Assembly (NCBI RefSeq): GCF_964355755.1
Contig: NC_092671.1
Span: 4,971,001-5,035,000 of the forward strand
DNA from: Antedon mediterranea
Lineage: Eukaryota > Echinodermata > Crinoidea > Comatulida > Antedonidae
Length of the DNA stretch: 64,000 bases
Direction of reading: 5' to 3'
Positions 1,141 to 46,400 of the stretch are shown piece after piece; position 1 is the first letter of the stretch, and each line of letters opens with the position of its first letter. A model generated the notes under the pieces. The model was not told the origin of the DNA and made no database searches. It saw only the letters and a list, made by a program, of their open reading frames with translations. The position numbers and the translations under genes were made by a program.

Positions 1141-1290
1141 TTTCCCAAATTATGTGCCTATCTGCAAAACAATTGTGTGTAAATCATTTTTACGGTAGTT
1201 GTTTAAATTACCATCCACCGTCTATATCATACATCAATCTTTTATTAAAGATGTATGAGGTAATAATTCACTAAATTTTGTTGGACATGA

Positions 1291-1745
1291 CATTTTAATG
1301 TCACGTAATAGTAAGTGGATCGAAAAATGTATTTACCTGACAAAACTGTAATTTAAAGCAAAACAATATTCAATGCCAGCCAATGGGTTTTTGGTGGAAT
1401 TATTTTGTGAAAATTAAGTGAAAACACTATTTTTGGGGTATTTTTTCTACGGAAGTGAATAACTTTATTAAAACTATAACAAAATAACCTATTCAGTCTG
1501 ACTTAATCAATCTTCATTTCTCAGGTTTTGGGGGGACATCTTTAAATGATTATGGCCTTTATGTCAATATTAAATCCTTTGCTCGGAAATGAAATTGTTT
1601 TTAATTATTATTTAGCACATCTAGGCTAATACTAATTGTTACTGTAACACCGTACAGGAGGACAAAATTTCCACTCGACAGTGCAGTTCTTCCCACTCGA
1701 CAGTGCAGTTCTTTTTGGGAAAGCCACTCGACAGTGCAGTTCTTT
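1291..1745 (+). repeat. foldback-element fragment: shared internal module plus three 21-nt direct repeats
   Basis: Positions ~1310-1410 are clearly related to ~7240-7345 (inside the foldback element at 6896-8125) and, inverted, to ~17795-17885. All share a core like CTGTAATTTAAAGCAAA. Just downstream, the 21-nt unit starting CCACTCGACAGTGCAGTTCT occurs three times (about 1671, 1692 and 1721) with uneven spacers. I find no inverted partner array nearby. A one-ended or deleted relative of the other inverted-array elements in this window is the simplest reading. Confidence 0.5.
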
Positions 1746-3140
1746 TGAACTGATCCACTTTTGGTTACCCGCAGGTGCTGATAGTACTTTTGTTCTGTTT
1801 TGTTGAATGATGCCGTACCTTGTTTATGATTTTTGTATGTTACCTGGAAATTGAATAAAAAATGTATGTATAGAATACCATTAACCGTTTTAAAAAATCT
1901 CTTTTCTGATATGATAAATGGTATCTTAAATCATGCGTATCAAACTTCTCATGCAACTAATAAGGCAAACGTGTGTGCTCATACAATAGATTAGAACTGG
2001 AATATTAGCAAGTATGAAACTGACCATGTTTAGGATTTGGCTTACGGCTTGCTCAGCTATGGATCCTTTATCTATGTACGTCTATACCTGTATAGGCCTA
2101 CAGTATGAGCATCTATAGAATGATTCAGGATATTGACTATATACAAGTAGAAGGACTATAATCAATCATAAAAAAATATGGTTTCCTATGCAGAACGTAG
2201 ATTCAACAGTAACATTATTACTGCATGGTAGAACGATACACACAGTAGGCCTACTGTTTAATGATGAATAATCCAAATCAACAATCAACCAGTTTTCGTC
2301 ACACTGTAGTTAATTCAGATTAAAATTTGCATGACAATTGTGAATAATATTATAAAAACATATGCATGTTGAATTGAAAACGTTTTAATTTCATAGTCTT
2401 GGTTTAGTGGCTCAGCCAAGCCCGTTTAATTCTACACGTGTACTTGGTCTTCTTCGTTAAAAAAATGTCTTCAGAGATCACATCTGTGGATGAGTATCAT
2501 TTTTATTTCTGTTGTAGCGTACAATCGAGAACTGCTGGTGTTCTGCCGTACCATGAAAAACAATAAATATCTCATCGCTTCCTCGCCTCTACCTTTCCCC
2601 CATCCCTCTGTCTTGTCAAGGTCAATATTAACCCTTTTCCTGTGGCATCCCGGATGATATAAAATTTGTAATTTTTTAAATTATTTTTTCTATTATGTAT
2701 TTTATGGTTTCGTCTGTTGAGGCAGCCGATATTTGCCCTTGTTGATGGCATCAGTAGAGAATAAAATTCAATAACACTGCAGTACCAATTGTCGAGGAAA
2801 TGGTGATTCAAGAACCAGAAGATTTCGAGTTTGAGACACTTTTACTCCTAGGCGTCTTGGTTAAACTGAGCCCGTTGGGAGTAGCATTTTAACTCTCAAA
2901 CATAATCTTCATTTTTACAGTTTACATATTCACAGTAGGCTATTGGTTGAAATGGTTTAGAAATTCCTTTCTAGTCGTAGGCCTATTTGAATTAGATTAC
3001 ATTTTTTGGCGGGAAAGGAATTATAGCCACACCCACATTTTCAGAAAACGTAATTTCAAAGTAATTTCAGGTAAGCCTACCTTAAATTCTTGAAGAAGTT
3101 GTAGAGTAATAAGTATTAGTTCTCTTACGGTGCTTGTCAC

Positions 3141-5967: not shown

Positions 5968-6895
5968 TGCAATTACAAAAATACCAATGTATTAATTAAC
6001 ATTAATGTAAAGTATTAATTATTATAAATGCTGTATTATGGCAGGGATGAATACAGTACCGTATCATATCACAGTTGAATCCAGATATCTCAAAAGGTTT
6101 TCCCTTTGATTGGTACGGTACACTGACTGTATCCTTCTAAATTATTAAATTAGATAACAGCACCAGTAGTGTCAACACCACTCACTTTTCAGTATCAACA
6201 GTTTGGAAATTAGTTTACATATTTTAAATTTTCGATTTGATGGGTTATCCAGGTGGAATTCTTTTTTTTATTATGTACTTGCTACTACTACTACTACAGT
6301 ACTAGCCTACTCAATCAAAATATCAATCTACTCAACACTGAGTTAATGAATCTTTCTGGCCATTTTAACAACCATCTACTACTACAGTACTACCATAGAG
6401 CTATAAATTAGCTCCATAATAATCTATGCACAAATTCACTAGGTTTATGAAAGCCTGCGTACAGAGGAACCCGTACAGAGTAGAGCTAGGCTAGTAGAGG
6501 TCCGGTACATCATCAAGCTGGGCGACCAACAATAAAGGCTAGGCCTAGTCCTAGATAGAGGGCCTGGCGCCCACCACATGGTTATGCCTGATAGAAAGAT
6601 ATATATTTATTACTTTATATACATATTAAACTTATATTACGAGCTAACTAGCCGCGCCTATAATATTACTAGGCCTAGAGACTGAAACGAAAACAAAGTC
6701 AAACGCCGTACAGAGAAATATTATTCTACCGTTTCGGTTCGGTAGCATGTTATTTTTAGAATTCTTTCCTCTGGAACCCCTCTGTAGCATACAAGACTAC
6801 GGCCGGGTAATCCTACGGCCGCACGACGGCGTCTTATAGTGAGCATTGTGTGGTAGTTTAACCTTTATACAGTACTAAGTTAGGAGTCTTTTTAT
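5968..6895. other. upstream region/intron of the zinc-finger gene
   Basis: Noncoding. Positions ~5968-6320 are duplicated at 13010-14900. The stretch at ~6440-6850 is less AT-rich, with TAGGCCTA-type filler, and may hold the promoter. I cannot place a transcription start. Confidence 0.4.
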
Positions 6896-8125
6896 AACCG
6901 TCTCGGCCAAAGTCAAGTCGCCCGCAGTCGGCCCCACATCAAGTCGGCCCCAAGTCAACTCGGCCCCAAGTCAACTCGGCCTCAAGTCAACTCGGCCTCA
7001 CGTCAACTCGGCCAAAAACTAATCGGTCAACTCGGCCACAATAAAGTATGGAACGCAAAAAGTGCTTAATATTATTATGATTCTTACTATCCACGCTTTA
7101 AAAAAAATGAATAAAAAAAATATATATATAATAAAGAAATATTTCTTACAAAAAACGCTGCTCGCTTATTGACGTAACTGTTTTAAAGATATATTGTCCC
7201 TCTAAAAAATATTTTTTAATTCAAATTTGTTTTTGAATGTGTCATTTTATTGTCACATATAAGTTATTTTACCTGAAAAAAATGTAATTAAAGGCAAAAA
7301 ATACTTCAATTGTCTGTCAGACAATGTGGTTTTTGAGTTATAATAATTAAACGTTTCTTTTCTCTTTTTATAATGTGAATTTTGTTACAGAAGTGATAAT
7401 TTATTGCTAAGGTCAAGTCTGGGGGTCAATTTCATGGACTGTTTTGATAATAATTCAATGATCTCGTGTGACGTAGCGGGCTAGAGCAGCAGCGGGATAA
7501 TATAATTAAATAATATCATATAAAAAAATGAACTCATTGCCGATATGAATATAAGTACCCGCGTGTTACAAAAACACGTGCAGGTACCGCATTTTAGTAA
7601 ATCGAAGACGGGGGCCTACGTTCCACCATTTGGCCATAGAAAAAAAAGGGGAAACCCCCGGTCAGTAAAAACACGTAGCAGTTGTAGACATCGAATTTTA
7701 TTAAACGTAAATAAAGGAAAGTTGGTGAAATCATTCCTATTTTTTTTGCTAAATATATTGTCTAAATATTAATATTCATTAAAAGTCAGAATTATTTATA
7801 GTTAAAAAATTGTGAAGAAATATTATTTTATCAATCCCCTTCATTTGCACTTTTTGCGTTCCATACTTTAACAGGGCCGAGTTGACCGATTATTTTTTGG
7901 CCGAGTTGACGTGAGGCCGAGTTGACGTGAGGCCGAGTTGACTTGAGGCCGAGTTGACTTGAGGCCGAGTTGACTTGAGGCCGAGTTGACTTGAGGCCGA
8001 GTTGACTTGAGGCCGAGTTGACTTGAGGCCGAGTTGACTTGAGGCCGAGTTGACTTGAGGCCGAGTTGACTTGAGGCCGAGTTGACTTTGGCCGAGACGG
8101 TTTAGGGCCGACTTGGATCGAAATC
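6896..8125. mobile_element. TU/foldback-like element A (16-bp inverted terminal arrays, 8-bp target duplication)
   Basis: The left end is a short array of AACTCGGCC-type units (6897-7030). The right end (7868-8100) is the inverted counterpart, about 13 copies of the 16-bp unit GGCCGAGTTGACTTGA. The outermost AACCGTCTCGGCC is matched by GGCCGAGACGGTT on the right. CTTTTTAT flanks both sides (6888-6895 and 8126-8133), an 8-bp target duplication. Inside the arrays, GTATGGAACGCAAAAAGTGC (left) and its complement (right) form a second inverted layer. The core is AT-rich with no real gene; the open frame at 7545-7772 has no family motif. Inverted repeats made of short tandem units with 8-bp duplications match the published layout of sea-urchin TU elements. 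That family link is inference. Confidence 0.75.
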
Positions 8126-8151
8126 CTTTTTATTACCGTAATAAATTGAAT

Positions 8152-8755
8152 AGAAAACTAAAGACCTAAGATATCTTACTGTAGAAACCTAAAGAAATGG
8201 AGGATAGTAATAACCCTTTAAAAAAAATGTTTATTGTATTTAAGCAACCATAGAGATATTATATATCTCTATGAAGCAACATAATTTCAATTTATTTGTT
8301 TAATACATGGATGTAATGCTAGATAAGTACAAGAAGCAAGACAATTATTAAATAAATCACTGAAAATATTTAATGATAAATTATACTGGTCTGGTGTGGT
8401 TGTAAAATCAACTGGATGAAATACTTGCCATTTCTTTATACTGTAATTGTTTGTATATATATTATGTGACCTGTATGTACCACTAGAAAATCTAAAATTG
8501 TTTACCGAAAACCACATCTTAGAAATAAACCCCCTTTAGTGGTAATAGAATAATCTAATTCTAACCATTCAAAAAGTCTCTAAAATACATTGCATTAAGA
8601 TATCTTAGGTCTTAGTTTTCTAGACACCCATCAACGGATCTAGAAAACTAAGACCCAAGATATTTCTAGATCTAAAAAACTATAATATCTTAGGTCTTAG
8701 TGTTCTAGACACCCATCAACGGATCTAGAAAACTAGACACCCAATTCGCACAATG
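8152..8755. repeat. inverted plus tandem repeat cluster (AGATATCTTAGGTCTTAG family)
   Basis: AAAACTAAAGACCTAAGATA (8154 onwards) is repeated inverted near 8598. From 8601 an ~85-bp unit with 'TAGACACCCATCAACGGATC' occurs twice in tandem (starts 8601 and 8686), each copy internally palindromic. It is noncoding and of unknown origin. Confidence 0.55.
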
Positions 8756-9931
8756 ATTGGCCTAGCTACCCAAAGTTCCCAAATGATAGCCTAACAACAA
8801 TAAACAGATTAACTACCAATCATTTTAACTCCATTATAAAATATCGTTGGAAATATCGAACAGCGTCCGACTTCATGGTGATAAGTATAACAAGTATCAT
8901 CATATCATACGTAAATATTTTTTATTATTATTTATTTTATTTATTTATTTTTATTTCAACAATATTTTATAAACCTTATTTAGTGAGGGTGACCCTAAAC
9001 AGCATATGCTGACAATCAAGGGGCACTCATATAAACATTATAAAAAAAAACATATATGGAAAAAGAAAAACGGACGAACTATGTTTTAAAAAATATATAT
9101 ACATAAATACAAAAATATAGCCTACAATACTATACAAAACGTTTTTTTATTGGAATTAAATATTTTTTTAGAGCAGACTTAAAATTGTTTATTGTAAATA
9201 TAATTTAATTTTGCTTACTACAATAAATACCGTAATCATCTTTATTTATTGGAAAATAATTGAAAGAACTAACTGTGTACAGATTAAACAACAACACAAA
9301 AATTAATTATGGCATCGAATTATGTTGATGTCATTAATCAATAAATTAAACATTTCACATAGTAATAAATACAAGGATGAAAATTTACTTGTCCTGTTGT
9401 GTTTAACAATATTTAAAGCATGATTTGCGTTCATTGATTGAAGCTCATGTTTAATTGTGAGAATTCCACAAGTTTTTTTTATGAAACTTAACAAGAAACA
9501 TGCAAGTGTAGTTTATGGAAATGTATTATGGACGGACAACGTATTCAGATGTTTTATAATAATCATAGTTCCGACAGTACCTATACCGCCCTCTGTGTGT
9601 ATCAAGATACACATATTGATTTGATTACAGTACAGTAATAGATCACATGACATTTCACAAAATATTACCATCTAAATACAGTATTACGCAAACAGCATTC
9701 ACATTGTACTGTATTGTATCGATCTATTTTCAAGATTGTAATTGTTCAAACAGGAACAAAACAAAAGTTTAATTTAATAAAAAGTTCGAGTTACTCAGTA
9801 ACTTTCGCTCTCTTTGAAAATTTCAACACAGCATAGTACAGTAGTATTATTAATTTTGTTTTCCTTTGTATTGTATTCAATAACATGTTTTATTTATTTA
9901 TTTATTTATTCAAGATCCAACAGTGTATAAA

Positions 9932-9964
9932 CAGGGAGTTGTTATTTCTAATAACAACTCCCTG
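9932..9964. repeat. perfect 15-bp hairpin, family shared with 54823-54853
   Basis: CAGGGAGTTGTTATT, a 3-nt loop, then the exact complement. An almost identical hairpin occurs at 54823-54853, so this is a dispersed element and not chance. Confidence 0.55.
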
Positions 9965-10155
9965 GTATAAAGAAAAACAACAATACAGGATCGCCATAAA
10001 ATATACATTTGATTTGAAAAAAAGAATAAGGAAAACAAACAGATGTATTGTAGGCCTATTTACATTAATTACAACTGTACACACATGTAATAATACTCAT
10101 ACATAATGTAATATTCATAGGCCTTCGGTCCTTCTATAAATCAAAAACTCATAAT

Positions 10156-10285
10156 AGCTCTTTCTACACTATCAAACTTTTTGTGACAAAAAAATGTAAT
10201 GTGCCAATATATGGACAAGATGATGTCATATCAATACCATATTTAGAATATTACTACCATATTTAAACTAGTTTATAGACAGAGC
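10156..10285 (-). mobile_element. ~130-bp MITE just downstream of the GT92 stop codon
   Basis: The ends are AGCTCTTTCTACACTATCAA and its imperfect complement TAGACAGAGCT. Related copies lie at 4566-4690 and 36371-36476. It abuts the stop codon and so probably forms part of the GT92 3' UTR. Confidence 0.55.
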
Positions 10286-10286
10286 T

Positions 10287-11690
10287 TTATATTTCGTAGT
10301 CTAAAAGCATAGGAATGGTAGTTGTATTCAAACCTTCTTTATCTTTTAGCACTGCTTTCCATATCTCTACCATAGTAGTATCTTTAACATTGAATGGTGG
10401 CAGTTTAAAGCTGCGATGCCTTGGATTATCTCCACGGTAATGCACCATTCTCAGCTCACTCACAGGATCTAATGTTTTATGCCCACTTCCTAACTTAATA
10501 GCGTGTATTTTGAAATAGTGAACATTAATTGGTCTTAAAATATGACCTGTATTTGGAATGGTTGGCAATTTTGATCTCCAAAGATTCCTCTCTATTATAG
10601 TACCATTGCGGGTAGTTGATTTTAGAGGTCGACCGAAAAACCAATTTTGAATCCTTATTCCTCCTAATGTATACAGTTTCGGATCTCTTAGATAGTCAGT
10701 GATTTTAGGTCTTTTCGGATCCATTGGTTGGATATATTCATCAACGTCAGTTTTAATCATCCATAGGGAATCATGTCGATGACGCCACAAACAGTCGTTT
10801 TCATGAGCAATCTGTATTTCCAGATACGTCTTTGAAGGTGATTTGGTATGCCTCCATGGAACTACAGTCACAAATCCTGAATTTATGAACTCCCTCAATG
10901 ATGTGATCAGAGAACTACTGTTACTTTCGTTGACAGCATTGTCATATATGTAAACATGCTCTACTCCCATATACTTGTGGTATTGTAACCACGAAGGGAT
11001 ACATTTATCTACATTCTTAACCATTGTACACATTGATAAAAAGTGTCTTTGCTTCAAACCTGTTTGACAAACCGTCAAATTGTCATAGGCGACGGTGTTC
11101 TCACTACCACTTTCTACATTAATTATATTAGTTTGTGCACTTGGTAAAATTCGAAAATTCATCTGAAAATTGAGTCTTGTTTTATATTTCTTTGGTAATT
11201 CACATGTTATTACAATTATATATTGTGGAAGCCATCCAAAGCTTAATTTATCCTCTAAAATAGGATTGTTAAAAGTTCTTTCACCATCTGGAAATTCACA
11301 GATAAACGTTCGAGAACTCCACTTGTTTGTTGAAAACTGTAATCCAATAAAAACCACATATTCTCCAGTTGTATCAACAAAAGCTGAATGTAGATCTGGT
11401 AGCCAAGACTTTCTTAAACTATCTTTGAAATAACACGATCCGTCTTGTGGATAAGAAGTCGTGTATTTAGATTCATCAATTAAAAATTCACCACAACCAT
11501 GTTTGCAGATAGATCCATTTTGAACACTTTGATCAATAGTGTATTGTTTGCGTATAACACTTTCATCCTGTGGTTGTTGATTGATAGATGGCAGGAATTC
11601 TTTAAATTTTACATTATTATCCAGGAAGATAACAAAGTATAGAGTAATAATGGCAAATGCAATGATTATTGTAAATTTCTTTTTCTTCAT
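10287..11690 (-). CDS. GT92-family (DUF23) type II membrane glycosyltransferase
   Basis: 467 residues in one coding exon. The N-terminus MKKKKFTIIIAFAIITLYFV is a cytosolic basic patch plus a signal-anchor helix (residues ~6-24), the usual type II Golgi topology. The GT92 domain spans about residues 205-440. SMCTMVKN at ~219-226 and WLQYHKYMGVEHVYIYDN at ~234-251 mark the N-terminal Rossmann part. The metal/donor-binding DVDEYI motif is at 315-320, and MVHYRG is at 415-420. The family includes nematode GALT-1, which adds galactose to core fucose on N-glycans; the substrate here is unknown. Several NxS/T sites (for example NLT, NGT, NTT) suggest glycosylation of the luminal part. A possible splice acceptor lies just upstream of the ATG, so the 5' UTR may be spliced. 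The frame is intact. Confidence 0.9.
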   Translation of the reverse strand: MKKKKFTIIIAFAIITLYFVIFLDNNVKFKEFLPSINQQPQDESVIRKQYTIDQSVQNGSICKHGCGEFLIDESKYTTSYPQDGSCYFKDSLRKSWLPDLHSAFVDTTGEYVVFIGLQFSTNKWSSRTFICEFPDGERTFNNPILEDKLSFGWLPQYIIVITCELPKKYKTRLNFQMNFRILPSAQTNIINVESGSENTVAYDNLTVCQTGLKQRHFLSMCTMVKNVDKCIPSWLQYHKYMGVEHVYIYDNAVNESNSSSLITSLREFINSGFVTVVPWRHTKSPSKTYLEIQIAHENDCLWRHRHDSLWMIKTDVDEYIQPMDPKRPKITDYLRDPKLYTLGGIRIQNWFFGRPLKSTTRNGTIIERNLWRSKLPTIPNTGHILRPINVHYFKIHAIKLGSGHKTLDPVSELRMVHYRGDNPRHRSFKLPPFNVKDTTMVEIWKAVLKDKEGLNTTTIPMLLDYEI

Positions 11691-11733
11691 ACTATGTTTC
11701 CTGTCAACCTTAGGAAAAATGGAAATGTTATTA

Positions 11734-12188
11734 GAGGTTTCGCAACCTTACGAATACGATAACGAAAACGGATACGTCACGCACACGTATTCGTTAGCCA
11801 GTAAAAATGTTTCGCATGGCAACGAAATATTTAGGGCGCCGTCTAAAATATGACTGCGGTAAATTTGAACGAAGCGCAGGTACATGTTGCTTGGCTGCCT
11901 AGGCATAACATGAAAGCGAGTGAGGACTTTAAAAACTGCTATTTATCAAAATTGACCTGGCATTAGTAAATTTCAATAAATCTATAATATTATATAATCA
12001 TGAATCATTCACTATTCAATTGCAAAATAGATCAAAAACTATACTCGTTTTGTAGTTTTATGAATATGACTGGTGATATTTGTCAACACGAATACGCTTT
12101 ACGAATATGAAATGGGGATCAGCTTAAAGTTTTACAAATGTGTGACATATCTGTTTTCGTTATCGTATTCGTAAGATTGCGAAACCTC
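11734..12188. mobile_element. 455-bp MITE with ~36-bp terminal inverted repeats, immediately 5' of GT92
   Basis: Left end GAGGTTTCGCAACCTTACGA and right end TCGTAAGATTGCGAAACCTC are inverted copies that continue inward for about 36 bp. The interior is noncoding, with further ACGAATA-type repeats. No convincing target duplication is seen. The left end lies 44 bp upstream of the GT92 start codon, so it may sit in that gene's promoter or first intron. Confidence 0.65.
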
Positions 12189-12239
12189 CCTAGTACCTCA
12201 AAATAATAAATTAATAATGAGTGTTGTCTTTATATATGC

Positions 12240-12930
12240 ATATTCTGTAGAAATTAGCTGAAATATGCAAATTAAGGGTAAAAACATAGGGTACCCATAG
12301 AACTCCAACCGCTAGTTATATAGATTTTTTTTCTAAATTGTTCAGAATAGGCCTATGTTTATATTCATTCTTAAGGAACTTTTTGTCCAAAAATGACCAG
12401 AAATACTGTATTTGACCTCTGACCTTATTTTAAAGGGATTTTCACAGGATTTACATATCTCCATAATCAATATAGGTAGAAACTTCATTTTATTCTATAT
12501 ACTTTTACATGTGACTGAGGGGATGAAATTCCACAAACCATACCTCGGACATACCTTTGGAACATGCAAATTATCTGAAACATGCACATTAATGGTTAAA
12601 ATATAGGGTATAGGACCTACAAATTGAACGCCAACCGCTAGTTGTTGAGAATTAATTTTTTTTCTCAAAATTGTTTTTGTGGAATATTTTGTCCCAACAA
12701 ATGACCGTAAGTGCCGTATTTGACCTTATTTTCAAAGGATTAAGGTAACTTTCACCATATTTATATATATATATCATATATAGTCAATAATTCCATTGAC
12801 TATGCTTTCACACAGGATTAACGTGTCACCATAACTACTCTAGGTAGAGACATTATTTTAGTCTCTATACTTACACATATGATAAAGAGATAAAATTCCA
12901 CAAATCACACTTTGTAACAAACACACACAT
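12240..12930. repeat. two tandem diverged copies of a ~330-bp repeat
   Basis: Both copies (about 12240-12560 and 12561-12930) contain CCAACCGCTAGTT, a GTCC-AAAATGACC-type segment, 'TTTGACCTTATTTT'-like DNA and ATTCCACAAA in the same order. The segment resembling 'GTCCAAAAATGACCGGAAAT' is also in the arms of the foldback element in the NBR1 intron (43042-46264), so the two repeats are related. Confidence 0.5.
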
Positions 12931-13036
12931 GCAATACTATAATTCTGTTTAACTGGCTGACTGAGAATTTTCTTCCTTGATCACTCTACTTGAATTTCTG
13001 CAATTACAAGAATGATAAAAATGTATTAATTTGAAG

Positions 13037-13752
13037 GGTGTCTGATCATTTCGGCCGCCAGTCATTTCGGCCGCCGGTTATGGAATTGCCAAATTCATGA
13101 AACGCCAAAAAGGACAATGTATTGTTCATTTCGGCCGCCATAATTGTAATTATTCTTGAATATGTATGACACCCCATGTGTGTTAAAATGTTAACATTTT
13201 ACTAAACACTGTATTTTTAAGCCGAATCGGCGGTCTTCAATTCCAGAAACAGCAGCAATATTTATGGCATAATTTATGGCGTGCACTTTGCCATCACTAC
13301 AGTGAATATTAATGATATTTTTTAATAAGAAGGAGGTGACACTTATTCGTATGTTTTACATTTATTATATTCATGAATAAACACATTTTTACAAAGCACA
13401 CGCACGCATCTTCAGGACCTGTAAAATAAAAATATAAATAAACATTTAATCAATATTCATTTTGACCAAAATATTCAGATGGTAAAATACCGTAATATAA
13501 CTTTAAATCTAAGTATTTAGCCCATTGCACAACTGATCTCTGGTTTAAATGACCATATTTCTCTGTGGCGTTCCATAGACTTGGTAAAGTAATTTTTTTC
13601 ACTGTACAGTTATTTCTGGCTATTTCAATTTGGCGCGCCATCCCTGGCGGCCGAAACGATCATGCCATATTTTGTCCTTTTTGGAGTTTTATGAATTTGG
13701 TCGTTCCTTAACCGACGGCCGAAATTATTGGCGGCCAAAATGCACTGTGACC
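13037..13752. mobile_element. TU/foldback-like element C, 716 bp, 8-bp target duplication
   Basis: ATTTGAAG is duplicated at 13029-13036 and 13753-13760. The ends carry CATTTCGGCCGCC-type units in inverted orientation (GGCGGCCGAAA on the right). Inside them, CATGAAACGCCAAAAAGGAC on the left pairs with TGTCCTTTTTGGAGTTTTATG on the right. This inner box resembles GTATGGAACGCAAAAAGTGC at the same position in element A. Comparison with the undisrupted paralogous sequence near 5995-6020 confirms the insertion. The only frame worth noting is 13450-13641. Confidence 0.75.
13450..13641 (-). CDS. unidentified 63-codon open frame inside element C
   Basis: Begins MARQIEIARNNCTVKK and includes SLWNATEKYGHLNQRSVVQW. 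The residue composition is gene-like, with no simple repeats. It is followed downstream on the minus strand by an AT-rich stretch ending in TTTTACAG, as if it were an exon followed by an intron. I do not recognise the family. It may be a captured host exon fragment or chance. There is no sign that it is expressed. Confidence 0.2.
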   Translation of the reverse strand: MARQIEIARNNCTVKKITLPSLWNATEKYGHLNQRSVVQWAKYLDLKLYYGILPSEYFGQNEY

Positions 13753-13920
13753 ATTTGAAGTATTAATTATTATAAATGCTGTATTATGGCAGGGATGAAT
13801 ACGGTACCATATCATCCAAGTTGAATCTAGATATCTCAAAAGGTTTTCCCTTTGATTGGTACGGTACTGACTGACTGTATCCTTCTAAATTATTAAATTA
13901 GATAACCGCACCAGTGTCAC

Positions 13921-14722
13921 TGTTATGCGCGATTTGAACGATTTGCGCAATTTGAAATTGCGCAAACAAAATCCTTGCGCAATTTGAATTGAAACATGTG
14001 TTTCAAATTGCGCAAGCAACGTATTAAATTGCGCAAGTAATCTGCAAATTGCGCAAGGTTTTTCGACAGATTGTGAAATCATGCACACCCATATTTTTAT
14101 AGTAATTTCTAAGAATGATTCAAAATTAAAGATAAATATCGCATTTCCTTATTTTAGTAGTGCAAATATTGTTATAAGTTAGCATACCGTCGAAGAACCG
14201 ACGAAGGAAAACTAAGCGGTGGTGTTCCACCAGGCGGGCGCGGCGCGGGCGGCCGACTATACTACTCTAGCCTAGCTAGGGTCTGGACTACTGATACTGA
14301 CTAGGTTACATGGCCTAGCTTAAACTAATATTAAAAACTTAAAAAGTGAGTATTAACATTATCTTCATTGAAATGGTCTTATTTACCCTATATAATAAAA
14401 TACTAAATTTTAAACTCCTCTGCCTAGGCCTAGCCTAGCCATGTATGGGAAAATTTACAGTTCGTTTTCAAATTGCGCAAAGGTGTCATATTGCGCAAGA
14501 ACTATCTTGCGCAATTTACAAATTGTGCAGCGCAATTTAAAATTGCGCAAAGATTTCTTGCGCAATTTGAAATTGCGCAAGTTGATTGCGCAATTTGAAA
14601 TTGCGCAAAAAAATCCTTGCGCAATTTTAAATTGCGCAAGAATTCTTTGCGCAATTTCAAATTGCGCAAGGATTTTTTTGCGCAATTTCAAATTGCGCAA
14701 ATCGTTCAAATCGCGCATAACA
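13921..14722. mobile_element. foldback element D, 802 bp, palindromic 'TTGCGCAA' units
   Basis: The terminal inverted repeats begin TGTTATGCGCGATTTGAACG and are identical for about 45 bp. TCAC flanks both sides (13917-13920 and 14723-14726), a likely 4-bp target duplication. The paralogous sequence near 6165-6180 lacks the insert. The right third (about 14465-14710) is a ladder of units such as TTGCGCAATTTGAAATTGCG, each itself palindromic. Transcripts would fold into a long multi-hairpin. The non-repeat middle (~14095-14440) is noncoding. Confidence 0.75.
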
Positions 14723-15257
14723 TCACCACCACTCACTTTTCAGTATCAACAGTTTGGACTCCATTGATTTAGAAATTATAGTTTCACATGATAATTATAA
14801 TTTTTAATTATCGATTTGATGGGTTATCCAGCTCATATTCTTATTTTGATTATGTACTTGGTATATTTTACTTTACTACTACTACTAGCCTAAACTAAAA
14901 ATTGTGTCCATACGACAGTTGAAAAAAAAAAAATTACTTATAATGGTCCCTACAGTAGGCTACTAACCTGTCCTCTGAAAATATGCTTGCCGCGCTATGT
15001 TATTTCTGTTGGTTACGCTTCCCTGCACAGCATTTTACGTCATCGATCAAAAATGTCTTCCGTTTCGTGAAAAAGGCCTAGCTAGTTAGGCCTGGGCCCC
15101 TAATAAGTCTACAGTATGGGTGTTGTGTAAAGGGTGTAAAAACAATGTTTAGTCGAAGATTAGAAGAATATTTTCAGTTGTTGATGTTGCATTTTTGCCC
15201 AGTCTAGTTTCTCTTAAGAATGGCTCTAACGCATTTTGCTACTCCCTTCTCTCTTTA

Positions 15258-15307
15258 AGGGGCATTCACACCTGCTCCGTTTCGCGGAACGGAAGACGGC
15301 GCCGTTT
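15258..15307 (+). repeat. left terminal inverted repeat of the Harbinger element
   Basis: Starts AGGGGCATTCACACCTGCTC right after the TTA target copy. It matches the right end at 48 of 50 positions. Confidence 0.9.
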
Positions 15308-15401
15308 CTTCCAACGTGACGCGCCCGTTCACCGTTCCGTTTTAAACATTCACACCTGTTCCGTTTTGTGACGTATTCCGTGACAACGGGCAAACGTTAA
15401 A

Positions 15402-17012
15402 ATGGCAGCCGTTTCTGGATGGTCATCGGATGATAGTGAGGACGAAATTATTCTTTCCGCTATAATTTTAGCCAAAAGAAGGAAAAGAAAATGGGTGAAG
15501 GAGGTCTGTTCAGAAAGAAAGACATTTGGTCAATTTGAAACGTTAGTAAAACGTAATCTGGCGACCAATGAAGACGAATTCTTCAATTATTTTAGAATGA
15601 CGCCTCACCAATACGGTCATCTTGTCAGTTTAATTAAAGATGATATTACAAAACGGGACACAAGATTCAGAGAGAGTATCTCCGCGGAAGAACGTTTATC
15701 CATCTGTTTAAGGTACGGTAATGCTCCGAGGTTTATTAATTAAAATTATATTCGTCTACTTAGTTGTCACCAAACTTAAATAGGCCATTGTATAGTAGTA
15801 GGTCTTGTATATGATTATAGGCAATTACGGGCATTAGGGCCTATCATTTTCACCAACATAATTATTATTAAATAATTTAATATAATACAGTTTTTGTATT
15901 TAACTCCACCAAAGTTCATGAATACGCATGAACTTAGTAGAACGTCTTACGAAGAGATTTTTACATCGTAAATAAAGGCTTTTTGAAATAATATTTTATA
16001 GGCCAAATTAGTAATACTAAATAGCCTAACTGCCGTTTACAAAGACATTGGAGTAATTTTGAAACTTGTTTTTATGTCTTGTTTTAGGTATCTTGCTACG
16101 GGTGATTCATATCCGACGATGTATTTTGCATATCGTGTTGGGAAGTCGACTATATGTAAAATTATTTCAGAAGTCTGCCAGGCGATTTGGGATAATTTAA
16201 AAAACACCTACATGGCTATTCCATCACGTAGCGATTGGAAGCAAATCGCGGAAGAGTTTAATTCGAAATGGAATTTCCCAAATTGCATTGGAGCAATAGA
16301 CGGCAAACATGTACAGATTGTAGCTCCAGATAGATCGGGGTCATTGTTTTATAACTATAAGTCGACACACTCAGTTGTGCTACTAGCACTGGTCGATGCT
16401 GACTACTGTTTTTCTTTCATTGATGTCGGGAACTACGGGTCAAACAGCGATGGCGGAATTTTCGCTAGATCCGACCTAAACCGAGCTATTACAAACAAAA
16501 CCTTGGAAGTACCAGAAGATGTCAATTTACCCGGTTCCCCAGAGCTTGGGCCAATGCCACATGTCATCTTAGGTGATGAAGCCTTCCCATTGAAAACTAA
16601 CATTATGAGGCCATATCCTGGAAAGGAACTGACCGACGAAAAGCGAATTTTTAACTACAGACTGTCGAGGGGCAGAAGAATCTCTGAAAACGTATTTGGA
16701 CAGCTGGCCGCGAAATACCGAATTTATTTTCGTGTAATCAACATGCATCCAAAGAACGTGGACAAGATCATTAAGGCAACTTGCGTACTCCATAACTACA
16801 TAAAAAAAACTTCCGACAGGAGTGGACGACTTCCTCCTACCGAAGACGTTGACCTTAGTCAATACGAAGGAATCCAGCCACTACGCCAAATAGGCAATCA
16901 TGCAGGGGTAGACGCGATGGGAATTCGTGATGCTTTCAAAGACTACTTCAATTCACCAAATGGCGAAGTTGTTTGGCAGCGAAAAGTGTGTTTTGGACAC
17001 GCCTCTATTTAA
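15402..17012 (+). CDS. Harbinger DDE transposase (HARBI1-like), two exons
   Basis: Exons 15402-15712 and 16088-17012 join through a GT-AG intron (AAG|GTACGG ... TTTTAG|GT) to give 411 residues, somewhat longer than host HARBI1 proteins (~350). The join restores SICLRYLATGDSYPTMYFAY, the family's typical N-terminal stretch; each exon alone ends abruptly. The RNase-H-like catalytic domain has the DDE_4 triad: Asp in GAIDGKHVQ (~175), Asp in ILGDEAFPL (~267) and Glu in RRISENVFG (~304). The acidic N-terminus SSDDSEDE and the basic KRRKRK are consistent with a nuclear protein. It should cut and reinsert the element in a TTA/TAA target, normally together with the accessory DNA-binding protein encoded on the opposite strand. 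There are no stops or frameshifts. Confidence 0.93.
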
Positions 17013-17357
17013 AAATGGTCAAGTGCCGTGGCAGAGACAAGCTTGCTTTGGGCACGCCTGCATCTAGTAATGTTGCTAATCAATGCATTCAACGTCAAAA
17101 TAATTTTCAAAATAAACAAATTAAAGATTGGTTAAGTACTGTAGTTTAATATAATTATAGCTATTAAATACAATTCACATTTAATTAGACATTCAGGTCA
17201 TTCAATATCAACTCTATAAATATAATAATCTTTTGTGAAATATTATATTCACATAACAAATTTTTAAATTTGTATTAATTACATCAACTGCATATTATAA
17301 TTTTGTCAGTTTCAGACATAAAGTTTGTGGTACATCACGTATATCATATATATATAT

Positions 17358-17415
17358 ACGTTTCGATCAATATACTTTGATCGTCATGAGGATCAAAATA
17401 TATTGATCGAAACGT
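17358..17415. repeat. palindrome with degenerate hammerhead-ribozyme-like core
   Basis: ACGTTTCGATCAATATACTT and its inverted counterpart flank GTCATGAG. Each strand reads TCATGA, a GATC...GATC stem, then GAAACGT. That is the order of a hammerhead core (CUGAUGA, stem II, GAAAC) with the first box mutated (TCATGA for TGATGA). Penelope-like elements are known to carry such motifs. It is probably an inactive relic, or just a palindromic repeat. Confidence 0.3.
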
Positions 17416-17997
17416 CAAGAAACTCAACAGTTCTTTTCAGAACCAAATACATATGGTGTACTGCAAGCTTTATGTCAACATTTGATTTTTCCAATCAAAC
17501 TGTCAAACAATATATTACTAATCTACATCTTGCATTGAATGCCCCATTTGTTAAATTGTTTTTAAATTACTTATTACATTGTTTTTGTTAATTTTAATGT
17601 TTCTTCTCTTGCAATAAATACATATGTATGTATTACAGATGTATTGTCTCCCAAAAACATGAAAAATGATGATTAATTAAATCAGACTTTAAAAAAGGAT
17701 ATTTTGTAGTTTTAATAGAGTAAATCTCTTCCATAGAAAAATAAATATGTTCACTATAAATTGACAATATAAATGGATAAATTCAACCCAAAACCCAGCC
17801 AATTTGACTATTGTTTGCTTTAAATTACAGTTTTTTCTGGTAAATCATTTCTTTTTTTCGATCCAGTTTTGTAGATACTGTAAAGTGGATAACAAATAAT
17901 AAACATTTAAATGGCAACAACAAAAATGGTAAGAATTTTTTTTCATGGGGACAATACATCTTAATACTTATACATAGCAAAATATTAATTTAAATTA

Positions 17998-18107
17998 ATC
18001 TAACTTAATATTCACAGATCCAATGGTAAAGACCAAATTTGAAAGTATTAGAGATTCATTTAAGAAATGGAAAGATTCGCAAATCCTGAAAAGCGGACAG
18101 GAATTCA
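17998..18107 (+). pseudogene. inverted partial copy of the MADF gene exon 2
   Basis: Includes the intron end TCTAACTTAATATTCACAG and then ~85 bp closely matching exon 2 (18737-18893) but on the opposite strand, for example CCAATGGTAAAGACCAAATT. It ends at GGACAGGAATTC, after which similarity stops. It has several substitutions relative to the functional exon and lies right next to the 3' end of the gene. Confidence 0.75.
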
Positions 18108-18118
18108 CCATGGTATAC

Positions 18119-19153
18119 TTATTCTTCATTAATTGCAATTTCTTCCTCAATTTCTAAAATTAGTTCATTCATTTTTCTCTTGACCTTGATTTGCTTTAAT
18201 TTTGGAAACCTTCTAACCGTTGCCAGGTGTGATCTAAAAAACAAAGTAAGGTCATCGGCTTCTTTTTGCTCATCTCTGGCCTTCTTTGATTGGAAATATT
18301 CCACTAAATGTTCTGCGATTTCTTCCTCTTTTTTTCTTTTATTGCAACTCGATTTTAATGTAGCTTTGGCATCTGCAGAAGCTTTAGCTACTGGAGCTTT
18401 AGCTACTGGAGCTTTAGCTACTGGAGCTTTAGCTACTGGAGCTTTAGCTACTGGAGCTTTAGCTACTGGAGCTTTAGCTACTGGAGCTTCAGCTACTGGA
18501 GCTTCAGCTACTGGAGCTTCAGCTACTGGAGCTTCAGCTACTGGAGCTTCAGCTACTGGAGCTTCAGCTATTGGGCCTTCAAAGTCAGTTGACACTGGAA
18601 TATCTGTATGTTTAGTAATGTTACTAAAACTTCTGTAAGTAAAGTTGGTTAAGATTAATTACAGTAAAAATAATAGCAACAACATTTATAACCCCACGTA
18701 ACTAAAAAAAACACACACATTAAAATCTGAACTTACTCCCGGTGTGATATATGGACTTGCAGAAATCCTAGGTGATCTGCCCACTTGTATTTTTTCTTCG
18801 CTTTGAATTCCTGTCCGCTTTTCACGATGTGGGAATCTTTCCATTTTTTGAATGAATCCCGTATACTCTCAAATTTGGTCTTTACCATTGGATCTGTGAA
18901 TATTAAGTTAGATTTAGGTTAGGTATGAATGCATTAACACAGTTTAAAACAGTAGAAACTGTTTCAATTTGTTGTTATGTAGGTATTAAATAAAATACTC
19001 ACATTCAAGTCCAACTTGCTTTCCAATAGCCTGCCAAATATCAATCTTTTTCTTATCATTCTTATAGTCTGAATTTTTCTTGTCGTACAAGACTGAATTT
19101 TTCTCCACTAGCAACAAGAGCCTTTCAATTTGATTGTCATAGTCAGAATTCAT
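18119..19153 (-). CDS. MADF-BESS DNA-binding accessory protein of the Harbinger element
   Basis: Three exons on the minus strand: 19003-19153 (ATG at 19151-19153), 18737-18893 and 18119-18632. Introns are GT-AG and frames join to 273 residues. The MADF (Myb/SANT-like) domain is at ~8-97, with LLLLVEKNSVLYDKK, IDIWQAIGKQVGL, FESIRDSFKKWKD and KYKWADHLGFL. Residues ~123-190 are about 13 repeats of the pentapeptide APVAE/APVAK (15-bp DNA repeat, ~18378-18575). The Glu-to-Lys switch midway splits the repeat into an acidic and a basic block. A basic patch (NKRKK) and a BESS-like motif (~232-270, DDLTLFFRSHLATVRRFP) follow; BESS mediates protein-protein contact. Harbinger accessory proteins of the Myb/SANT class bind the element ends and carry the transposase into the nucleus; that role is inferred here. 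Confidence 0.88.
18378..18575 (-). repeat. in-frame 15-bp coding minisatellite
   Basis: About 13 tandem copies of a unit like GCTACTGGAGCTTTA, seen on the plus strand. A block with TTTAGC is followed by a block with TTCAGC. It is open on both strands because the period is a multiple of three. It encodes the APVAE/APVAK tract of the MADF protein. Confidence 0.85.
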
Positions 19154-20060
19154 GATGTGATTCTGTCACACACAAGACAAGCAGAAAAAAAAAAAGAAAA
19201 TATCAATTAGTTATTCATGAATATCTATTTTAATTTCCACATACTGTAATTATTTCAGCCTCTAATTTATATAGATTATTATTATAATAGATTAATAGGC
19301 CCAAGGTACCCTAGACTAACATACTAATTTATTAACTCTAGGCTAGGCCTAGCCTTGTTGCGATATGTTCTTTCCTGAAACTGGAATTGATCTAGGCCTA
19401 GCTAGGCAGATAGAAGTAGTAGGGCCTAGGCCTACTGTAAAAAAAAAATAGCTATAGGCCTAGTTAGGCTAGGCGGGCTAGTACTCCTAGTCTACGCTTA
19501 GCTAGGCTACTGTAATAATAATATTATAACCCTTAGTTAGTAGTTAGGTAGGCCTGTGCATAGCCCTTATTTGTATTACTATATGGTAGACCTATCTAGG
19601 CTATATAGGCTACTACTACTAGGCCTAGTAGGCCTAGGCAGGTATAGATTATTACTATTTATAAGATTAGATTATATAGTTATACTACAACAGGCGTAGA
19701 GTAGTAGTAGGCCAAGTCTAAATAGGCTAGTCTTAGTTTAGGTACATCTAGGCTAGTATAGTAAGTTACGTTTAGCCTACTTACTACTACTAGCCTAGAG
19801 GCCTAGGGCTAGGCGCCCTACAAACAGTATTAATAATAATAGAATAGGCCTACTACTAGTACTAACTAGGCCTAGCCTAGTAGTAAGTAGAGGGCCTAAT
19901 TATTAATAATTACTACAAACCTATGATGCAGACTAGAGCTAGACTACGATGACGATCTTAGGCTATAGTATTGGTGTTATAGGCCTCTAGGCTAGTATGG
20001 AAAGGGTTGCTATGCTAAGCCTACCGCGTCTCGTCCTACGGCGAGAGGGCACGAAGAATA
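19154..20060. other. Harbinger noncoding filler rich in TAGGCCTA
   Basis: Dense in short palindromic TAGGCCTAG, TAGTAGTA and similar words, with no gene. It probably contains the promoter of the minus-strand MADF gene. Confidence 0.4.
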
Positions 20061-22398
20061 CAGGTCAACCCGTACCCATGCCAACTCGTACCCACCAACT
20101 CGTACCCAAATTTTGGCTTACTCGTACCCAAAATTTTGGCTGACCCGTACCCATCATTGGCTGACCCGTACCCATCATTGGCTAGCCCGTACCCAAGTTT
20201 AATGCTATTTAAAGTATATTTATATTACATTTAAACCCAGTTTTATTAAATTTTTAGATACCAATCATATTATGTTCGATATTAATTATAATGGCAAAAA
20301 CTATTGACCTAAAAAGTATAATAATATGTACAGACTCGTACGAAAAAAGCACAGCTTTCATCGTATTTGCGTACGTCGTATTTGGTCAAGTTAATACTTG
20401 AGGGCGCTGTTTTATATGGGATGTCAGTGGTCGGCTGTGCTGCATTCTATTTTTTTTTCATTTATGAGTTATTCATCTATTATTTTCTACAAATAGTAGT
20501 ACACGGAAATTGAAATACCCACTAGTCTGTGATGATGAAAACTTGAATTATTAAAAGTAAACATGAATATCTTTTATACATAATTTGTATTTTCATTTTA
20601 TTTTACAGATAATGAAGTAATGTGCTTTTTGAAAATCGTTTTAAAACGAATGTTTTTTGTTGTTTTGTTTTGCAAGTTTTGGAAATTATTAAACTGTTTT
20701 AACATTTCGAAAATATTTAAATACATTTTTAAGTAGTCACTCGTATTTTAAAATCACGAAACTATTTAAGTGGATACCAGCCTCATTGCTGCTATGAGCA
20801 TCTTAGTAGTAGATTAGATTATTGCAGTTTATCTAGTACCTACAATGACGGATGTGAGAGTAATAATAAAAGGTAACCTCCCAATAATTTAACATTTAAT
20901 TACAAACGACGACATTTGCTGTTATTACGTTTTCATTTTATAATGATTATTACTGTATTATTAATAATGACTAAAAACCGAAATAAATACTACAAACTTA
21001 AAAAAATCATCTTATCGCTGACAGATACGTAACTCAGACACGTGTAGGGGCCTTCAGAACGTTTATATTATTTTAGTAAATAACGACATCCGTTGCCATG
21101 GAAAAACGATCGTAGTTCATTCATTTGTCTTATTTGACACATTATAGAATGCGTATTTTTTTTTAAAAGGGAATCCCTCGTCAGCAAAAACACGTAGCTG
21201 TAAGTTATTGAGGAAACATTTACCAAAAATGCTTAATTACCGTAAACAAACAGATAATTTTACTGAATTATTTCAGAAAAAAAATAAATAGAAAACGATC
21301 ATACGCCACATTGCGTTGTCTATTTTTGGACACACTAAAAATGGACCCGTACGTACAAATGCGTTTTTTTTAAATATTAAAGAGGAATCCCCATTCAGCA
21401 AAAACACGTACGTAGCTGTTATAGAAGAAAATCTGCCAACATGTTTAATAATTGCCTTACAGTACGACAGTACGTGTATATGATCATTTCACTGAATTAT
21501 TAATAAATAAAATATATGGAAAACGATCATACGTCATTACTGAGTCGTCTCTTAGACGCCGGCCCTATAAATGCGTGTTTTTTGTAATAAAAGGTTAATC
21601 CCGGTCAGCAAAAACACGTAACACGAAATCTACGAGTAATTCGACCCCATAGCCCTGCAGGCTTTTTGCTTAAAACAGGGCGTTGTTAATTCAACCAATT
21701 TTGAACATACAAATACAATAGAAATAATAATTACTTGATCGAATGTAATCAGGAAAGATAATTAGAATAAAATAAAAGAATAAAAATTGATAAGTATAAA
21801 ATTATACGTTGTTGGTACTTTACCTGGGCTTAATTGACTTGTAATACTAACTATACAACAGTTAAAATATTTTTTTATTAATTAATTTTCTCTTACGTAA
21901 ATAAAAAAGACACATCAAACATACGTTTATAAAACTATAATACTACATTTAAATAAATGTTAACAAATATATGCCTAATTAAACGAAGTCTACAATCAAA
22001 TCAATGGTCATTAATTTTTTTATTAGCACAAAAAACAATTTAAATATAAAAATATTCATACGGCAAAAGCATCCGTTTTGCGCCGATCAAATCATTACAA
22101 GTAATTATTCAAATTGGGTACGAGTAGGCCAAATAATGGGTACGAGTAAGCCAAAAATGGGTACGGGTAAGCCAAATAATGGGTACGAGTAAGCCAAATA
22201 ATGGGTACGAGTAAGCCAAATACTTGGGTACGAGTAAGCCAAATATTTAGGTACGAGTTGGCATGGGTACGGGTTGGTTTGGGTACGGGTTAGCCAAAGT
22301 GGGTACGAGTTGACCAATTATTTGGGTACGAGTTAGCCAAGTTGGGTACGAGTTGGCATGGGTACGGGTTGGTTTGGGTACGGGTTGACCAGCACCCC
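20061..22398. mobile_element. TU/foldback-like element B nested in the Harbinger element
   Basis: The left array (20063-20195) has units like AACTCGTACCCA and GACCCGTACCCATCATTGGCT. The right array (22118-22390) is the inverse, with about 13 units of 16-25 bp such as GGGTACGAGTAAGCCAAATA. The outermost GGTCAACCCGTACCC on the left is matched inverted on the right. Possible 8-bp duplications GAAGAATA (20053-20060) and GCGGAATA (22399-22406) agree at six of eight bases. The interior has three tandem ~210-bp units (starts about 21150, 21358 and 21567), each with GTCAGCAAAAACACGTA. That box also occurs once in element A (~7660, as GTCAGTAAAAACACGTAGC). No coding gene is seen. Confidence 0.7.
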
Positions 22399-43400: not shown

Positions 43401-46400
43401 GGTGTCACTTTGTTCAGAATAAATACATTTATATTTGTAGTAATGGAACATTTTCACATAAAATGACCGGAAATACAATTTATGACCTTTGACATTAATT
43501 TATTGATTTTTAATTATGTGAATATACTGTAGGTGGTTTTTGTTGGTCTAAAGTGCACCTAATTTTGAACTTTAACCTGATAGGCGTAATTATATTAAAT
43601 GATTAATGGACTTAAATTGTATATAGTACATAAAATTGGTAAACATTGTGCTTGGTGGTACCATTAGTTCAATGATGTTGGCACCTTCTGATTCGCTAAA
43701 AGTTTTAATAGTTTGACAGAGGAAATAACATACATGTTATTGAATACCGTAAAACCTCGAAAAGGTGATAGTATGAGCTTCTTTTCGAGACAGTCTGTAT
43801 TTGATTGTCAAATGAATATAGTATGATGATCGTGTTTATATCAATATATTATTAATGACCTTACAAAGAACCCTTTCTATTTCAACAATTAAGCCATAGT
43901 TATTCTACAATTTATTGTTTTCCAAGTGGTAGGCCTATTTTGATTGCATCTTATTTTTGTATGCTTCCTCGGTTAATATGGTCCTAACCCTCCTTCTTTG
44001 TCTGTAGATGATCTTATACCCCATTCTTTGTCTGTGGATGGTCTTTACCCGCTTCTGTGTCTGTTGATGGTATTATTACACCCCTTTCTTTATGTATGGA
44101 TGGTCTTACACCCATTTCTTTGTCTGTGGATGGTCCTACACTCCCTTCTTTGTCTGTGGATGGTCCTACACCCCTTCTTTTTCTGTGGATGGTCCTACAC
44201 CCCCTTCTTTGTCTGTGGATAGTCTTATGCACCTTTCTTTGTCTGTGGATGGTCTTACACACCTTTCTTTGTCTGTGGACGGTCTTATACCCCTTTCTTT
44301 GTCTGTGGATGGTCTTATACCCCTTCTGTGTCTGTTGATGGTATTACAACCCTTTCTTTGTCTGTTGATGGTATTACACCCCTTTCTTTGTCTGTGAATG
44401 GTTCTACACCCCTTCTTTGTCTGTGGATGGTCTTACACCCCTGTCTTTGTCTGTAGATGGTCTTACACTCCCTTCTTTGTATGTGGATGGTCTTACTTAC
44501 ACCCCTTCTTTGTCTGTGGGTGGTCTTACATCCCCTTCTTTGTCTGTGGATGGTCCGATGGTCCTACACCTCCTTTTTTGTCTGTGAATGGTCTTATACC
44601 CCTTCTTTGTCTGTAAGTGGTCCTATACCCCTTTCTTTGTCAGTGGACGGTTCTACACCCCCTTCTTTGTCTGTGGATGGTCTTACACCCCTTTCTCTTT
44701 CTGTGGACGGTCTTATACCCGCTTCTGTGCCTGTGGGTGATCTTATACCCCCTTCTTTGTCTGTTGATGGTATTACACCCCTTTCTTTGTCCGTTGATGG
44801 TATTACACCCCTTTTTTGTATGTGGATGGTCTTATACACCCCTTTCTTTGTGTATGGCTGGTCTTGCACTCCTTTAATTTGTCTGTGGATGGTCTTATAC
44901 CCCTTCTTTGTCTGTAAGTGGTCCTATACCCCTTTCTTTGTCAGTGGTGGATGGTCTTACACCCCCTTCTTTGTCTGTGGACGGTCCTACGCCCCCTTCT
45001 TTGTCTGTGGATGGTCCTATACCCCTTTTTTTGTCAGTGGATGGTCTTATACCCCCTTCTTTGTCTGTGGACGGTCCTACATCCCCTTCTTTGTCTTTAG
45101 ATGGCCTTAGACCCCTTTCTTTGTCTGTGGATGGTCTTATACCTCCTTCTTTGTGTGTGGATGGTCTTACACCCCCTTCTTTGTCTGTGGATGGTCTTAC
45201 ACCCCCTTTTTTGTCTGTGGATGGTCTTATACCTTCTTCTTTGTATGTGGATGGTCTTACAACCCCTTCTTTGTCTGTGGATGGTCTTACACCCCCTTCT
45301 TTGTCTGTGGATGGTCTTACACCCCCTTCTTTGTCTGGACCCACTACTTTGATTGATTAAATTAGACATTGTTTCTTGTATGATTAGGAAACCAAGACCT
45401 TTAAAGTGAAAGTCCACAGGTGGATGCCTAAACAGGTCTTGTACAGAACAGTATATTGTAGGTCCATGTCACTAATTTGAGGATTACTTGAATAATTATA
45501 TTGAGATGTCTTTTACGAATTGATTTAGTTCGGATTTTGCTAAAAAATCAATGACTAGAGAAAATCGAGGAAAAGGATTCAGATGAAATGGAGTACATTT
45601 TTTTAGATGCAACGAAAAAACGATTGACACATCACAGTTTAGCAAACATGTCGGCATAGATGAGCTCAGTGATCTGTCATACTTTATGCCTATCCTATCA
45701 CATCAAAAGTAAAACATTCAGAATCATAATTCCGTGTCATTTATTTCGGTAAAAAAATTAGGTGCATTTATACCAATTTAACCACATACAGTATGTTCAC
45801 ATAATTATATATGTCAAAGGTTATAAATTGTATTTCCAGTCATTTTATGTGAAAATGTTTCATTACTATAAATATAAATGTCTTTATTCTGAACAAAATG
45901 ACACCAAAATCGATTGAAAATGATCAGTAGTTAATGAGATATACAAATAAGAGGTCAAAGGTCAAACTGGAAGAAACGTAATTTTTGGACGAAACTTTTC
46001 ATTAGAGCAAATAGAAATATGTGGTTTGTGAACAATTTAACACCAGAATCAAGTCTCTACTGTTTATAGTTGCCAAGATATGAACACTTTTTGTTTTTAT
46101 GGTGGCCATTTTGAAATCAAGATGGCCGCCATACCGGACGTTGGACACTTGGCACCCCCCGATATTTTGAATCTATATACATCAAAGAATCTTTGTGGAA
46201 AGTTTCATGCTTTGGTAATAAAGTGCACAACTTGGCTATTTTTATGGCGTTAACTGCTCTACTATAAGGGCCGGCTCCATGTATGTTCAAGTCACTGATC
46301 TGTCACTGTATTCACCAAGCTTACCGTAGGCAAAGAGAAACACACTTACAATTTCAAATTTGTTTTTTTAAAATTGGTACTAACCTTGGTTGGATGTTGG

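Follow-up and report, generated by a model that had tools for sequence, protein, structure and literature searches.

How can elements whose terminal arrays of short tandem units look nothing alike share a recognisable core? The question is posed by a stretch of 64,000 nucleotides from the crinoid Antedon mediterranea (NC_092671.1, positions 4,971,001 to 5,035,000; hereafter the window), in which a first-pass annotation had described four elements as one family, with arrays swapped around a common core. We refer to these elements as A, B, C and D. The best reading of the sequences is that A and B are sister families that are diverging at their ends. More broadly, we consider it likely that A, B and C are three dispersed, non-autonomous cut-and-paste families of Mutator-like elements (MULEs; Foldback/Phantom type), of which A and B are sisters, and that D is unrelated to them. 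We searched the 354-Mb assembly (18 contigs), and fetched and read 68 individual loci. Inverted short-unit arrays were borne out at all four places by reading the sequence, and genome searches with each element revealed that A, B, C and D are all dispersed repeat families whose copies carry constant ends. The bounds noted for A, C and D proved correct to the base. The following features of the window carry the argument (TIR, terminal inverted repeat):

6888-6895: left target duplication of A, 8 bp, CTTTTTAT, identical to 8126-8133
6896-8125, plus strand: element A, non-autonomous; unit GGCCGAGTTGACTTGA, arrays at about 6903-7040 (left) and about 7876-8105 (right)
7156-7497, plus strand: stretch absent from most A copies (A-copy alignments); holds an abundant dispersed repeat also found at 1262-1550
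7580-7700, plus strand: A core module homologous to the B core (GGGGAAACCCCCGGTCAGTAAAAACACGTAGC...; nhmmer 2.5e-9 and 5.5e-8)
7849-7873, minus strand: inner border of the A inverted repeat, TAAAGTATGGAACGCAAAAAGTGC; inverted copy near 7042-7066, 24/24 match
8126-8133: right target duplication of A, 8 bp, CTTTTTAT, read from the sequence
13029-13036: left target duplication of C, 8 bp, ATTTGAAG, read from the sequence
13037-13752, plus strand: element C; tips GGTGTCTGATCATTTCGGCC / GGCCAAAATGCACTGTGACC, unit CATTTCGGCCGCC
13753-13760: right target duplication of C, 8 bp, ATTTGAAG, read from the sequence
13921-14722, plus strand: element D; TIR TGTTATGCGCGATTTGAACGATTTGCGC, palindromic unit TTGCGCAATTTGAAATTGCGCA, 4-bp duplication TCAC at 13917-13920 and 14723-14726
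20056-22397, plus strand: element B (previously placed at 20061-22398; the element stands, with these as its true bounds); tips GAATACAGGTCAACCC / GGTTGACCAGCACCC, arrays about 20062-20197 and 22115-22390
21110-21640, plus strand: B core; the module shared with A is present as three tandem copies spaced by about 210 bp; boxes at 21180, 21394 and 21604

The resemblance between the cores of A and B, already noticed in the first-pass annotation, is a homology over about 150 bp: a profile built from A copies finds B with an E-value of 2.5e-9, matching it three times in tandem, and a B profile finds A with 5.5e-8. A plain pairwise score missed this match because the A copy of the window is degenerate there. 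The shared core includes the palindrome GGGGAATCCCC and GTCAG[C/T][A/G]AAAACACGTAGC, and is tripled or further multiplied in B. Its box, TCAG[C/T][A/G]AAAACACGTA, has 292 matches in the genome against none for the reversed pattern, a control that also gave no match for the ends of A, B and C. Within the sampled part of the genome, the box positions suggest that the module is nearly absent outside A and B.

The relationship is not confined to the core. A and B have a tip in common, GGGTGC[A/T]GGTCAA, in which 12 of 14 bases agree and which none of 2,000 shuffles equalled; it is missing from the A copy of the window and visible only in other A copies. The array units are related too. Those of B are CCAACTCGTACCC, GGCTTACTCGTACCC, GGTCAACCCGTACCC and variants, and the A unit GGCCGAGTTGACTTGA and the B variant unit GGGTACGAGTTGACC have CGAGTTGAC in common. 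The A unit resembles two of the three B unit forms (p about 0.013-0.025, post hoc and uncorrected, as are all p values for units given here), whereas the form GGGTACGAGTAAGCC is not similar. Given the shared tip and the related units, the earlier statement that the units share no sequence is wrong for A and B; the unit of D is unrelated to those of A, B and C alike. Common descent is enough to account for a core that can still be recognised, and since A and B share the tip as well, it explains both. It is improbable, though conceivable, that selection has preserved the core, perhaps because it regulates the element or binds the transposase internally, as tips and arrays drifted; if true, recognition would lie partly inside the element.

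Do arrays and cores change partners? We compared the positions of core boxes and termini from C1 to about C3:19.2 Mb, where the lists of both kinds of site overlap, for a total of 100 boxes. Of the B-form boxes, 59 of 60 have a B terminus at most 3.5 kb away; of the A-form boxes, 33 of 39 have an A terminus at most 1.5 kb away, and the other six have no exact terminus of either kind. The chance expectation for such proximity is under 1%. Where any A or B terminus was nearby, the type of box and the type of terminus agreed in 92 of 93 boxes. The single mismatch is the A copy of the window, in which a point change produced the B-like spelling of the box and the A terminus was retained. Thus, no array-core exchange between A and B was seen among the 100 boxes. 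Two loci with A and C ends close together were considered as chimeras and rejected, the neighbours being side-by-side insertions about 10 bp and about 110 bp apart. Because box type and terminus are tightly linked and the A-C neighbours are not chimeras, cores cluster with their arrays as far as tested, which contradicts the proposed swapping. The TU elements of sea urchin are foldback elements with short-unit inverted arrays; the exchange of arrays and cores, not seen here, sets the Antedon elements apart from them.

If anything, modularity runs in the reverse direction, with A termini also bounding a different core. A second class with A termini, roughly 2 kb long, lacks the core box; one such copy, read over 1.1 kb, holds a different core made partly of other repeats. 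By analogy, different cores under A termini are ordinary for non-autonomous MULEs. A third module, said to be shared by A and a fragment at 1291, is indeed present in both; it is a dispersed repeat that most A copies lack, not an element core. It has 3,419 candidate places genome-wide (best scored about 75-80% identity). In most scored A copies the alignment passes directly from query position about 250 to about 602-615, so that query 260-602 is missing.

The ends of the elements allow a tentative placement in a superfamily. Exact matches to terminal 15-20-mers number 285 for A and 223 for B in the genome, and the GGTCACAG end of C has 49. In the fetched copies the tips are GGGTGCAGGTCAAGTC and G[A/G]TTTCGATCC for A, GGGTGCTGGTCAACCC and GAATACAGGTCAACCC for B, and GGTGTCTGATCATTTCGGCC and GGTCACAGTGCATTTCGGCC for C. 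For A, four copies (L004, L005, L007 and L008) have a target duplication of exactly 8 bp; it is 8 or 9 bp in B and 8 bp in C, all within the 8-11 bp of Mutator-like elements. A, B and C have the long TIRs with short subterminal tandem repeats of Tm1 and Muta, and like Tm1 (A1/A2) carry unequal tips outside the repeats: GGGTGCAGG / GRTTTCGATCC in A, GGGTGCTGG / GAATACAGG in B and GGTGTCTG / GGTCACAG in C. Their interiors contain no conserved reading frame and no Pfam domain; a 69-amino-acid frame in C was rejected as a gene, as it is not conserved from copy to copy and has no relatives. We favour a non-autonomous MULE-type identity because unequal tips, short-unit arrays, 8-9-bp duplications and the lack of coding capacity match Tm1 and Muta.

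Tm1 of root-knot nematodes, a Mutator/Foldback element, has unequal 7-bp tips, tandem motifs of about 14 bp, 8-10-bp duplications and a Phantom MULE transposase (PMC3169594). As in A, B and C, its short tips differ and lie outside the repeats, and the number of units varies between ends; different cores occur under the same ends; and an inner A-rich motif is followed by one more unit, a layout also found in C (PMC3169594). The sequences are unrelated, however, and Tm1 has one transposase-encoding copy, whereas none was found here and two sister families have a core in common. The box that the first-pass annotation had seen in both A and C occupies, in C, the position of inner motif D of Tm1. 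In Aedes, all 14 MULE families have 8-9-bp duplications, and among those with long TIRs 10 of 12 have subterminal tandem repeats of 9-15 bp, with heterogeneous cores in non-autonomous copies (PMC5225508). Muta (Phantom) of Aedes aegypti resembles the Antedon elements in its several families per genome, many of them with subterminal tandem repeats of their own, in its 8-9-bp duplications, and in its many non-autonomous copies with heterogeneous cores (PMC5225508). Muta families are defined from autonomous copies, while only non-autonomous copies were seen here.

In favour of this placement, the genome has 36 places with a MULE domain, some of them intact multi-copy frames of about 640-700 amino acids. 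Several observations weigh against it. The search for an autonomous, transposase-encoding copy, in which these places were compared with C ends and with the A and B termini listed (at least 100 places each), found none with A, B or C ends. The few MULE matches within 10 kb of the listed A and B termini are at chance level or in the wrong orientation. Given that no MULE was found between A, B or C ends, we infer the membership of all three from anatomy. The inner box shared by A and C was not recovered as homology by profiles in either direction (the C profile finds nothing in A); what would link A and C is their anatomy and a weak unit similarity (p about 0.003-0.02). Finally, the A copy of the window has a perfect 8-bp duplication despite starting 23 bp inside the family left tip.

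This copy is worth describing in its own right. Its right tip is GGATCGAAATC, and on the left it is without the outermost 23 bp of the family tip (GGGTGCAGGTCAAGTCGGCCCTA). At 6888-6900 and 8126-8133, the perfect 8-bp duplication directly adjoins AACCGTCTCGG, 23 bp inside the usual left tip, an arrangement that would fit mobilisation from an internal end.

How well do other explanations fare against that of sister MULE-type families? Modular elements, in which one mobile core repeatedly gains new terminal arrays after the manner of sea urchin TU elements, would account for related A and B cores under visibly different arrays, and for the different core that A arrays bound in the roughly 2-kb class. 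Yet no A/B exchange occurred among the 100 boxes, the tips and units of A and B are themselves related, the adjoining A and C copies are separate insertions and the third module is a common repeat; we regard this explanation as highly unlikely. Alternatively, the A-B core module could be a dispersed repeat in its own right, which reached the two families by independent insertions, as the module at 1291 proved to be such a repeat. This is very doubtful, in view of the core box lying nearly always beside A or B termini where checked, and of the tip that A and B also have in common.

A more serious contender concerns the enzyme. The elements could be foldback elements of the P superfamily, similar to Galileo, with repeats bound by a THAP-domain transposase. 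Long, internally repetitive TIRs are indeed found in the Galileo and Tetris foldback elements of Drosophila (PMC3688188, PMC4079207), and Tetris further resembles the Antedon elements in its 8-10-bp duplications, its roughly 220-bp tandem repeats and the lack of any autonomous copy found (PMC4079207). Those repeats lie in the TIRs (PMC4079207), however, while the roughly 210-bp repeats of B are in the core, and Galileo uses a P-type transposase (PMC3688188). The genome holds 35 places with a TNP-like RNase H domain (PF21787), and the 8-bp duplications of A and C fit the 7-8 bp of the P superfamily. B, on the other hand, also gives 9-bp duplications, a pattern reported for the MULE Muta1; the unequal tips fit Tm1; and no P-type place among the 35 is closer than 10 kb to the listed A and B termini or to any C end. 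In view of the 9-bp duplications of B and of the missing link to these termini and ends, a P-type origin is less likely, and we consider it unlikely overall.

Element D does not belong with the others. Its ends, TGTTATGCGCG...CGCGCATAACA (TGT...ACA), and flanks were read in ten copies including that of the window, and eight of these have 4-bp duplications (CATA three times, TTTA, TTTG, TAAG, TCAC and GTTA); one of the remaining copies is best read as 5 bp (TACCG) and one is ambiguous. D thus lies outside the 8-11 bp of Mutator-like elements. It is unrelated to A, B and C in duplication, tip, unit and core, and represents a separate superfamily because of its 4-bp duplications and different ends. 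The idea of one family therefore holds for the related cores of A and B, and fails for D; C may be a member. The TGTNR-type tip (TGTTA) and 4-bp duplication of D recall Ginger2 and other TGT...ACA transposons (PMC2836005), a comparison by ends and duplications alone, and the target duplications of D break the RTATAY preference of Ginger2. Throughout the genome, copies of D share about 98-99% identity, suggesting a recent burst of amplification.

Some loci with B sequences have an unusual arrangement. At C6:23955622-23960366 two B copies (L011 and L012) stand head to tail with few bases between them and a short flank in common. Outward-facing B ends about 5.5 kb apart were considered as an autonomous element and rejected, as the fetched pieces form a large palindrome with B-array fragments; no evident gene was present in the stretch read. 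This palindrome (L069, L070 and L071; C1:11538050-11543800) measures about 5.7 kb, and its arms are 93-99% alike in the parts read. The B-array fragments face outward near both of its ends, and the 5.5-kb spacing is found at six or more places in all.

The window contains further repeats, two of which are listed here:

1262-1550, plus strand: copy of the abundant dispersed repeat, not an element core (genome search)
1671-1746, plus strand: three copies of CCACTCGACAGTGCAGTTCTT, a 21-mer that is almost always single elsewhere, with no inverted array

The abundant repeat, of about 290 bp, is also found at 17645-17868. We accepted the 21-mer array neither as a fifth element, since the 21-mer is usually single, nor as evidence of a connection with a MULE lying 2 kb off at C8:5179414, a proximity near chance. 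A 336-amino-acid frame at 16002-17012 carries a DDE_Tnp_4 domain of PIF/Harbinger type (E 9.5e-34), and nearby sequence at 15270-15668 recurs inside L088, an A-type element of roughly 2 kb. A 30-bp unit is present in about 45 copies at 43978-45337, with several frames open, and a 46-bp unit is repeated eleven times at 56966-57474 (97% alike). Rfam gave no match within the window.

A working model can be given for the ends of such elements. At either end, A, B and C carry a unique tip of about 10-14 bp, which differs between the two ends, and behind it an array of 13-22-bp units. The tip is most likely the site at which the enzyme cuts, with 8-9 bp of target duplicated. TIR repeats of Galileo (Drosophila, P superfamily) bind the Galileo transposase (PMC3688188), and by analogy the array units are most likely multiple transposase-binding sites. 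The tip, units and roughly 150-bp core of A and B were presumably inherited from a common ancestral element, and as sister families each probably has its own transposase. Since then their arrays have diverged by turnover of units, a change probably accompanied by one in the DNA-binding domain of the enzyme of each family; it is in this sense that we infer a binding role of the arrays and the co-divergence of array and enzyme. The first-pass annotation had left a dilemma: either the array is not the recognition signal, or each array co-evolves with its own enzyme. The literature supports the second option, with the addition that the shared tip has changed least.

A single genome thus shows how foldback ends diverge, one outermost tip and an internal non-coding module remaining recognisable while the array units have turned over. 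No new mechanism is called for. This pattern can help in the classification of foldback repeats and in the choice of targets for tests of transposase binding.

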